NCBI RefSeq assembly: GCF_004341205.1
Contig: NZ_SLUL01000004.1
Coordinates: 186,001-250,000, forward strand
Reading direction: 5' to 3'
Length of the DNA: 64,000 bases
DNA from: Thermolongibacillus altinsuensis
GTDB taxonomy: Bacteria > Bacillota > Bacilli > Bacillales > Anoxybacillaceae
The notes under the pieces were generated by a model, which saw only the letters and a list, made by a program, of their open reading frames with translations, had not been told where the DNA came from and did not search any database. This document shows, piece after piece, positions 9,085-32,040 of the stretch. The stretch's first letter is position 1; each line of letters begins with the position of its first letter. A program made the position numbers and the translations under genes.

Positions 9085-9229
9085 TTTTTCTCCCCCTTCG
9101 CCGATGAAGCGCACAATTTTTCCTTGTTTTCATTTTAACAACCTTTTTTATAGTAAAACGAAACAAATCGCACAATTTTTTGTCGGAGAAGTGAACATTT
9201 TATGAACAAATATATGTGATAAACCTAAT

Positions 9230-9400
9230 TTTCCGACATGAACAAGCTTTTCTGCCAATCCTCCCGAACGAAAACGCCATCAGAAATGCCATGCGTTTTA
9301 CGTTCGGGATCGGCACGCTAGAAGCATGCCTAGGCGGCAAGATTTTTCTTGCCGCTAGGCAGAAAAGCGGTCTCCTATTCATGATGAGATATGTCGGAAA
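9230..9400. repeat. structured repeat element, full copy A
   Basis: The outermost stem is TTTCCGACAT (9230-9239) / ATGTCGGAAA (9391-9400). Inside it is CTTTTCTGCC / GGCAGAAAAG (9247-9256, 9358-9367). The inner part holds three hairpins: CCCGAACG..CGTTCGGG extended by AAAACGC/GCGTTTT, GGCA..TGCC, and GCGGCAAG/CTTGCCGC. A second copy with the same fold but changed pairs is at 31861-31989. It contains no believable gene. It could be a MITE-like element or a structured RNA. Confidence 0.75.
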
Positions 9401-9426
9401 CTCAACTTGAATCTATCCTATATAGA

Positions 9427-10224
9427 TCAACGTTGGCGGCGACGGAATGCCCAATGATTCGTTGGACCGTGGCCTTGACCAATTCCTAATTCATCTTCAA
9501 TGGCCGCTTGGATAAACTGTTTTGCCGTGTCAACTGCTTCATAAATGGTTTTTCCTTTTGCCAATTGCGCTGTTATAGCTGCTGCAAACGTACAACCTGT
9601 CCCATGTGTATGTTTCGTTTCGATTCGCGGACTCACCCACTCATAGAAACGAACTCCGTCATATAGCAAGTCCACAAGCTGCTCGCCGTCTCCATGTCCG
9701 CCTTTCATGACGACGTAGTTGACTCCTAACTGATGCAATGCTTTTGCCGCTTCTTTTCGATCATCGATTGTGCGAATTTCCATCCCTGTCAATACTTCTG
9801 CTTCTGGAATGTTTGGCGTGATCACATCGGCGAGCGGCAACAATTCGCTTTTTAATGACGCAATTGCTTCTTTTTGCAATAATGGCGCACCGCCTTTGGC
9901 AATCATGACAGGATCCACAACGATGTTTTGTAATTGATGCTCTTTTATTTTGCTGGCTACTAGATGAATGATGCTGCTGCTAAATAACATTCCTGTTTTG
10001 ACTGCATGTGGACGCAAATCAACAACAACCGAATCAATTTGCTGAGCCACTGCTTCAAGCGGAAGCGGATAGACCCCTTGCACCCCTAGCGTATTTTGCG
10101 CCGTCACAGCCGTAATCGCTGACATACCAAACACTTCTAGCTCTTGAAATGTTTTTAAATCTGCTTGAATTCCTGCTCCCCCACCGCTATCTGAACCAGC
10201 GATTGTCAACGCTTTATAGACCAT
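9427..10224 (-). CDS. thiD: HMP(-P) kinase / pyridoxine kinase ThiD
   Basis: A 265-residue ribokinase-fold kinase. It has the N-terminal AGSDSGGGAGIQADLKTF signature and a C-terminal ETKHTHGTGCTFAAAI anion-hole motif. It phosphorylates hydroxymethylpyrimidine and HMP-phosphate for thiamine synthesis; Bacillus homologues also accept pyridoxal. Because it is the last gene of a TPP-riboswitch operon with tenA and ykoEDC, a thiamine role is favoured. ATG 10224 is chosen (GGTGA six bases upstream); TTG 10227 is adjacent. The gap to ykoC is 89 bases. Confidence 0.9.
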   Translation of the reverse strand: MVYKALTIAGSDSGGGAGIQADLKTFQELEVFGMSAITAVTAQNTLGVQGVYPLPLEAVAQQIDSVVVDLRPHAVKTGMLFSSSIIHLVASKIKEHQLQNIVVDPVMIAKGGAPLLQKEAIASLKSELLPLADVITPNIPEAEVLTGMEIRTIDDRKEAAKALHQLGVNYVVMKGGHGDGEQLVDLLYDGVRFYEWVSPRIETKHTHGTGCTFAAAITAQLAKGKTIYEAVDTAKQFIQAAIEDELGIGQGHGPTNHWAFRRRQR

Positions 10225-10313
10225 CAATCTTCACCCCAACTCCTTCTTCTGTTTCGTTTTCGTACGACGTTCGATTGCTCCTACAAGATGAAAAAATGAC
10301 ATAAAATTCGCAT

Positions 10314-13934: not shown

Positions 13935-13978
13935 ACAAACGATGTGAAAAATGAAAATACGCGTCTATTTCGCACCGT

Positions 13979-14072
13979 CTCCACTTCCCTACGCTGGTAT
14001 AACCCAGATCAGGTTCTAAGGGTCTCAAAGGCACACTTTGATCTCAGCCTATCTAAAGGCCCCCCTAGTGGA
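13979..14072 (-). promoter_or_regulatory. TPP riboswitch (THI element)
   Basis: The reverse strand carries the THI-box hallmarks in order: GGGG...CTGAGA near 14040-14068, ACCCTTAGAACCTGATCTGG near 14003-14023, and the closing GCGTAGGGAAG near 13985-13995. With the terminator downstream it should switch off tenA-ykoEDC-thiD when thiamine pyrophosphate is plentiful. Confidence 0.97.
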
Positions 14073-14164
14073 TTTCACGATTTATTCTTATTCACTTTTA
14101 TTGGCTTGAGTCTATCATAACCATGCTTTAAAATCATTGTCAAGAAATTTTATACAATTTCTTT

Positions 14165-31751: not shown

Positions 31752-31860
31752 TGCAATCCTCTCCTTTCGCCCCTTATTATTTACGTTTTTTATCTTGTTA
31801 TGGCTAGCAAATATGTCCTCGAGCGGAAGGAAAGGGGACTGAGTAAAATGTTTATGGTAA

Positions 31861-31989
31861 TTTCTGCCACTTTTTCCGAACGAGAACGCCATCGGACAAA
31901 TATATTTGTCCGTGGAGCGTTCTTCGTTCGGATTGGCATGCGGTTCGCATGCCCAGTCTGCCAAATTCTTTGGCAGACCGTGGCAGAAA
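31861..31989. repeat. structured repeat element, copy B
   Basis: Outer stem TTTCTGCCAC / GTGGCAGAAA. Inner hairpins: CCGAACG..CGTTCGG extended by AGAACGC/GCGTTCT with an added GGACAAAT/ATTTGTCC hairpin, then GGCATGCG/CGCATGCC, and GTCTGCCAAA/TTTGGCAGAC. Compared with copy A at 9.2 kb the loops and several stem pairs differ, but the pairs change together. It lies between the divergent yhcV and bdbC. Confidence 0.75.
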
Positions 31990-32040
31990 AGAAGGAAGAG
32001 GCTCCTACAAAACTTGACTCACACAGAAAAAAGGGATTCA

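Follow-up and report, generated by a model that had tools for sequence, protein, structure and literature searches.

Two cloverleaf-forming repeats in a 64,000-nt stretch of the Thermolongibacillus altinsuensis genome (contig NZ_SLUL01000004.1, positions 186,001 to 250,000; hereafter, the window) are MITEs, and their structured core has probably been re-housed by several transposase systems. One homologous core occurs in at least four unrelated terminal-repeat shells (A and D, which are IS630-like; B, which is ISLre2-like; C; and E), and this core is mobile, widespread, covarying, and invertible. We found no account of these repeats in the literature searched.

Copies A and B and their shells

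Both copies fold into an outer stem (P1) followed by three hairpins (H1, H2, and H3). This is the architecture, in the same order, that a first-pass annotation of the window had described at 9230-9400 and 31861-31989, and the stem differences it had quoted as compensatory (e.g., AAAACGC/GCGTTTT in A versus AGAACGC/GCGTTCT in B) are correct. Single-strand folding of copy A (9211-9416) yielded -84.1 kcal/mol (z = -8.5), and that of copy B (31840-32010) yielded -82.1 kcal/mol (z = -9.7), with 0 of 200 shuffles equally stable in each case. The two cores, of about 135 bp, are 75% identical, whereas the ends of A and B are unrelated. The units extend beyond the stems, to about 9211-9425 for A and about 31838-32024 for B (Table 1). 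The additional 10-bp outermost stem that it had assigned to copy A (TTTCCGACAT/ATGTCGGAAA) exists, but it is the inner part of an imperfect IS630-type terminal inverted repeat of about 29 bp and not a stem of the cloverleaf. Copy B lacks this stem because it belongs to the terminal inverted repeat of A.

Table 1. Extent and parts of copies A and B (positions in the window)
Feature	Positions	Strand	Sequence	Basis or remark
Copy A, whole MITE (type A: IS630-type shell and cloverleaf core)	9211..9425	+		Similarity of other copies stops at 9211 and about 9416; TA-rich flanks kept in 51 copies
Copy A, left terminal inverted repeat	9211..9239	+	TATATGTGATAAACCTAATTTTCCGACAT	Matches terminal repeat CTATATAGATTCAGATTAATTTTCCGACAT of IS630-family IS in relatives
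Copy A, right terminal inverted repeat	9391..9425	-	ATGTCGGAAACTCAACTTGAATCTAT...	
Copy A, outer stem P1, 5' arm	9246..9256	+	GCTTTTCTGCC	Inverted-repeat pair, folding
Copy A, outer stem P1, 3' arm	9358..9368	+	GGCAGAAAAGC	Inverted-repeat pair, folding
Copy A, hairpin H1	9262..9309	+		Tip shortened: most of GACAAATNNATTTGTC, present in most copies, is missing
Copy A, hairpin H2	9312..9330	+	GGCACGCTAGAAGCATGCC	
Copy A, hairpin H3	9334..9355	+	GCGGCAAGATTTTTCTTGCCGC	
Copy B, whole MITE (type B: ISLre2-type shell and cloverleaf core)	31838..32024	+		Same end points in related copies of the genome
Copy B, left terminal inverted repeat	31840..31859	+	TGAGTAAAATGTTTATGG..	Matches TGAGTAAAATGTTTGTGGGA of a 1.6-kb ISLre2-family IS of Anoxybacillus pushchinoensis (L312:5832-7470)
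Copy B, right terminal inverted repeat	32003..32024	-	TCCTACAAAACTTGACTCACAC	
Copy B, outer stem P1, 5' arm	31861..31870	+	TTTCTGCCAC	
Copy B, outer stem P1, 3' arm	31980..31989	+	GTGGCAGAAA	
Copy B, hairpin H1	31875..31932	+		With full GGACAAATATATTTGTCC tip
Copy B, hairpin H2	31935..31953	+	GGCATGCGGTTCGCATGCC	Inverted-repeat pair, folding
Copy B, hairpin H3	31956..31978	+	GTCTGCCAAATTCTTTGGCAGAC	Inverted-repeat pair, folding

The annotation had presented the two copies, 22 kb apart, as a pair. Both are real, but they are not isolated: they are two of about 70 cores in the host genome (73 covariance-model matches), and they belong to different element types. A 221-bp query returned 40 scored near-full-length matches in this genome, including itself, and the others were 81-93% identical. 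The 21-nt left end of A, allowing up to three mismatches, occurred 62 times, compared with 0 for a reversed control. Aligned A copies share their left limit, TATATATGATAAGCTTAATTTTCCGACAT, and their right limit, ATGTCGGAAACTCAACTTGAATCTATATA, which form an imperfect terminal inverted repeat. TA was found at the outer ends of 40-48 of 51 type A copies; the target evidence for this type consists of the flanking TA, not of a duplication proved by an empty site. Copy B has about ten relatives in the genome, many of them partial. Type B ends are (GAC)TGAGTAAAATGTTTATGGGA and the imperfect inverse TCCCACAAAAACTTGACTCACAC, with candidate target duplications of 9-11 bp (L087 and L090). Short stretches that look like the right end of A (e.g., ATGTCGAAAAATTAACTTCAATCTATACAG) are found no more than a few hundred bp to the right of two B elements (L087 and L091) and are possibly A remnants.

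The ends of both types match those of full-length IS elements. In related genomes, CTATATAGATTCAGATTAATTTTCCGACAT ends like those of A flank IS elements of about 1.1 kb, whose 357-aa protein is an IS630-family transposase (DDE_3, PF13358; NF033545, E = 1.8e-79). Ends like those of B flank the 1.6-kb IS of A. pushchinoensis, which encodes an ISLre2-family transposase (PF06782; NF033529, E = 1.6e-89). Copy A thus combines the ends of an IS630-family IS with a TA target, as an IS630-type MITE does, and copy B has the ends of an ISLre2-family IS, as an ISLre2-type MITE does. Therefore, the two copies in the window belong to two unrelated systems.

The elements are about 187-250 bp long, multicopy, and bounded by terminal inverted repeats, and they carry no transposase gene. 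Overlap with an ORF longer than 200 aa was absent for 29 of 30 A copies and 70 of 71 C copies (type C is described below). Six A elements (L052, L053, L056, L057, L062, and L069) have intact ends and hairpins that are wholly or largely deleted, with breakpoints inside stems. Either the core is not strictly needed or it was lost from these copies after insertion.

The same core in shells C, D, and E

As the annotation had suggested, we built a covariance model from the A and B cores only (R1) and searched related genomes. The model matched 27 of the family's 41 genomes, covering 9 of 9 genera, with up to about 70 copies per genome; in all, the core recurs hundreds of times among these related thermophiles. 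Matches numbered 69, 40, and 38 in the genomes of A. tepidamans, A. amylolyticus, and A. voinovskiensis; the other matched species include Geobacillus thermocatenulatus, G. zalihae, A. calidus, and A. pushchinoensis. Two plasmid records, one from Anoxybacillus and one from Geobacillus, contained a match, and phage and viral contigs contained none. A pattern match in Listeria valentina was dismissed as chance, having neither hairpins nor a model match.

Most cores in the family genomes lie in a third shell, C (CACGAGTGTTGATTATCCATTATTTTAC ... GGTTTTTATTGGTTAATCAACACGCCTG), which R1 detects at 2.8e-25. Both C ends were present in standard order at 70 of 99 inspected cores. Target-site duplications, the sign of a mobile element that the annotation had named, were found at these sites: 52 of 89 distinct C sites had a perfect 9-bp duplication and 61 of 89 had one with at most one mismatch, compared with a shuffled mean of 0.8. 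We also found an empty site, where A. amylolyticus carries the uninterrupted target once (AAAAAGGAC) and A. voinovskiensis carries AAAAGGGGC on both sides of the element. Several features therefore support the MITE-like origin that had been offered as a possibility: the elements have terminal repeats, are intergenic, and are present in high copy number, A and B have matching autonomous IS elements, and type C has 9-bp target duplications and an empty site. For shell C, searches by end pattern in A. amylolyticus (G019) and in the whole family returned only MITEs and no autonomous IS or transposase. Two apparent 1.57-kb IS elements with C ends in A. amylolyticus (L190:242-1811 and L181:224-1802) are really C elements split by an ISL3-family IS (424-codon ORF, PF01610), the two halves together mimicking one IS.

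A fourth form, D, is common in Geobacillus (P1, TTCGACTGTC; H2, GTCACGC/GCGTGAC; ends, CTATATAGATGCAA...TTGCATCTATATAG). Its shell is IS630-like and related to shell A, and R1 scores one D copy at 2.4e-12. At L179:282-904, a type D-like cloverleaf apparently lies within a type C element, one mini-transposon nested in another. A second model (R2), built from 43 cores of A to D, matched 14 of 299 genomes of the order; one of them, from another family, gave at least 11 matches, C-type where read. Weak R2 matches in two further families represent a fifth form, E (P1, CTATTGGACCGT/ACGGTCCAATAG; H1 tip, GGACAAATTCATTTGTCC; H2, CTTCACGC/GCGTGAAG; H3, AACCAAGC/GCTTGGTT; ends, GGCTGTTTTCGTAAACTTTGTTG and GGCTCTTTTCTCAAAGGTTGTTGC), with 8-bp target duplications (TTGATATA and TTATTTTA). 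A third model (R3), based solely on E, detected a C copy in A. calidus (4.8e-10) and a D copy (2.7e-5). A class-wide search with R3 returned only family members, in at least 3 of 399 genomes, a figure that is no proof of rarity given the few candidates scored per genome. No transposase for shell E was seen. One type E copy (L349:1501-1651) contains a tandem duplication of part of H2-H3 and still folds as one long hairpin set.

Over about 140 alignment columns, cores A, B, and C share 73-75% identity, and they score roughly three to four times as high as the best among 300 shuffles. The shells of A, B, C, and E are mutually no better than shuffles (best local scores, P = 0.39-0.95); only A and D are alike. 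As judged from these alignments and models, homology is clear among the A, B, and C cores and recognizable for those of D and E. Homology of E to the other cores is likely, on the basis of its architecture, its H1 tip, and the cross-matching models.

The sequence shared by A, B, and C starts and stops at the outer stem, as would be expected if the cloverleaf were a mobile unit of its own that had inserted into several pre-existing MITEs. We regard such a nested transposon as unlikely. Nearly all cores with readable flanks have a shell (7 of 99 had no recognized end on either side, four of them type D), and we saw neither a target duplication where core and shell meet nor a shell of the same type that was undamaged yet lacked the core.

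Covariation and inversion of loops and core

We measured covariation on a MAFFT alignment of the 43 cores that was made without structure input. Paired cells amounted to 93.4%, compared with 85.3% in shuffled alignments and 34-44% with slid partners. Changes on both sides occurred in 27 of 50 pairs, compared with 14.9 in shuffles, and 0 of 500 shuffles reached any of these measures. Within families, single-sided stem changes dominated (96 versus 8 paired cells in A and 265 versus 31 in C): copies decay individually, and lineages are distinguished by paired changes. Stems had diverged by 2.2% in type A and 3.2% in type C, compared with 5-6% and 7% for the respective shells and 21-36% for loops. 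This low stem divergence may reflect structural selection on active copies, arm-to-arm repair, or, in part, ascertainment, as most copies were found via the core.

The loops occur in two states, each the exact reverse complement of the other. In type A, the H2 loop is TCT in 32 copies and AGA in 9, and the H3 loop is AAAA in 27 and TTTT in 14. In type C, the states are GTC (41) and GAC (13) or GTA (8) and TAC (3) in H1, GTACA (28) and TGTAC (5) in H2, and GAACC (21) and GGTTC (10) in H3. All four combinations of H2 and H3 loop states are present in type A; therefore, the flips have recurred or recombined. The core as a whole also inverts. Three genomes have one insertion in common upstream of hisG, and the entire cloverleaf in one of them (G012, L137) is inverted relative to the other two (G018 and G006, L131 and L143). 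This inversion spans outer stem to outer stem; outside it, the loci align over the full length of both shells and through the flanking genes. A further core, at L158, is flanked on its left by an end of the right type.

When a polymerase switches templates between inverted repeats, it is known to homogenize the arms and invert the spacer (PMC8604942); such switching can also give rise to stems and keep them intact, with compensatory changes arising in one step (PMC8794818). In the present elements, loops are inverted and stem changes are paired, as in these products; the published reports cover genes or single loci (PMC8604942, PMC8794818, PMC7202029), whereas here three hairpins and a whole cloverleaf are involved, in hundreds of copies. 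We infer that the inverted loops and core are marks of template switching during replication in vivo. The hundreds of copies constitute a natural data set for template switching that flips loops and makes compensatory changes in bacteria.

Copies A and B, as MITEs, are short non-coding transposons, probably moved in trans by the transposases of full-length IS elements. The core would fold as hairpins in single-stranded DNA, and polymerase template switching between arms would invert the loops and the core and homogenize the arms. Most tentatively, the core may have passed among shells by recombination, and it may persist because a compact folded center aids spread or tolerance with any transposase and independently of orientation. 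It is also possible, if doubtful, that the cloverleaf is a portable functional module, repeatedly acquired by non-autonomous transposons of unrelated systems across Bacillales, with a fold (as DNA or RNA) that promotes spread and with exchangeable ends.

Strong cross-genus covariation, conservation of the three-hairpin architecture and of the H1 tip, and lower divergence of stems than of shells are also properties of a functional structured RNA, which could be a MITE-borne sRNA or an mRNA element selected via its transcript. We consider this quite unlikely. A strand-specific structural RNA is expected to tolerate G.T (wobble) over A.C pairs, but single transitions in the A and C stems gave 53 G.T and 42 A.C distinct events (P = 0.30). 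Orientation relative to neighboring genes was unbiased (A, 12 ++ and 9 --; C, 27 ++ and 20 --), and the excess of single-sided over paired stem changes within families also argues against it. No Rfam 15 family matched at gathering or relaxed thresholds, with only chance matches below the cut-offs, so the earlier statement that no named family fits stands; omega-RNA (HEARO) and other known RNAs were rejected on the same grounds. A dedicated RNA is not supported, as neither an Rfam family nor a bias in strand or orientation was found. As to the selection on RNA or DNA structure that the annotation had suggested, a conserved structure with compensatory change, beyond recent copying, is borne out at the level of the family. 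Selection on RNA is not established, because loops are freely swapped for their reverse complements, the whole core is inverted at an orthologous site, G.T and A.C are equally common, and template switching yields compensatory changes unselected. These elements thus serve as a warning that strong covariation alone is no proof of a functional RNA.

Convergence, in which palindrome-rich MITEs evolve hairpins of this kind and coincidence plus template-switch repair accounts for the shared core, fits the stable stem-loops that MITE transcripts generally form (PMC10969869) and the creation and maintenance of stems by template switching (PMC8794818), but it is very improbable, being refuted for A, B, and C by their full-length alignment far above 300 shuffles and by the detection of C with a model of A and B, and possible only for type E.

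Relation to known elements

A MITE family is normally defined by one transposase system, and its members normally share ends and not the middle; classification rests on the ends, and a MITE is viewed as an IS element minus the middle. The present elements resemble IS630/Tc1-mariner-type and ISLre2-type MITEs in being short, non-coding, intergenic, and high in copy number, with terminal inverted repeats shared with IS elements and with target duplication. They differ in that one structured core lies in the shells of several systems and that only the ends, not the middle, match the IS elements. A conserved middle with interchangeable ends suggests how a non-autonomous element might survive when any given transposase is lost.

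REP/BIME elements with TnpA-REP (RAYT) and IS200/IS605-type palindromic elements are likewise hairpin-forming intergenic repeats. Such elements lack terminal inverted repeats and target duplication; the present elements have both, which rules out an IS200/IS605-type or RAYT palindromic element. The Bacillus stem-loop repeats Bcr1, Bant-1, and Bhal-1, of 70-170 bp, are found in Bacillaceae and, like the present elements, are interspersed and structured and have mobile-element features (PMC2267715). In the available part of that report, there is one repeat per species family, no cross-shell cloverleaf is described, and Geobacillus goes unmentioned (PMC2267715); the present core is set apart from these repeats by description only.

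Two further features of the window lie on its minus strand. The ORF to the right of copy A (9427-10227) looks, judged by eye only, like a hydroxymethylpyrimidine kinase gene, and a TPP riboswitch (Rfam RF00059) is located at 13969-14076.
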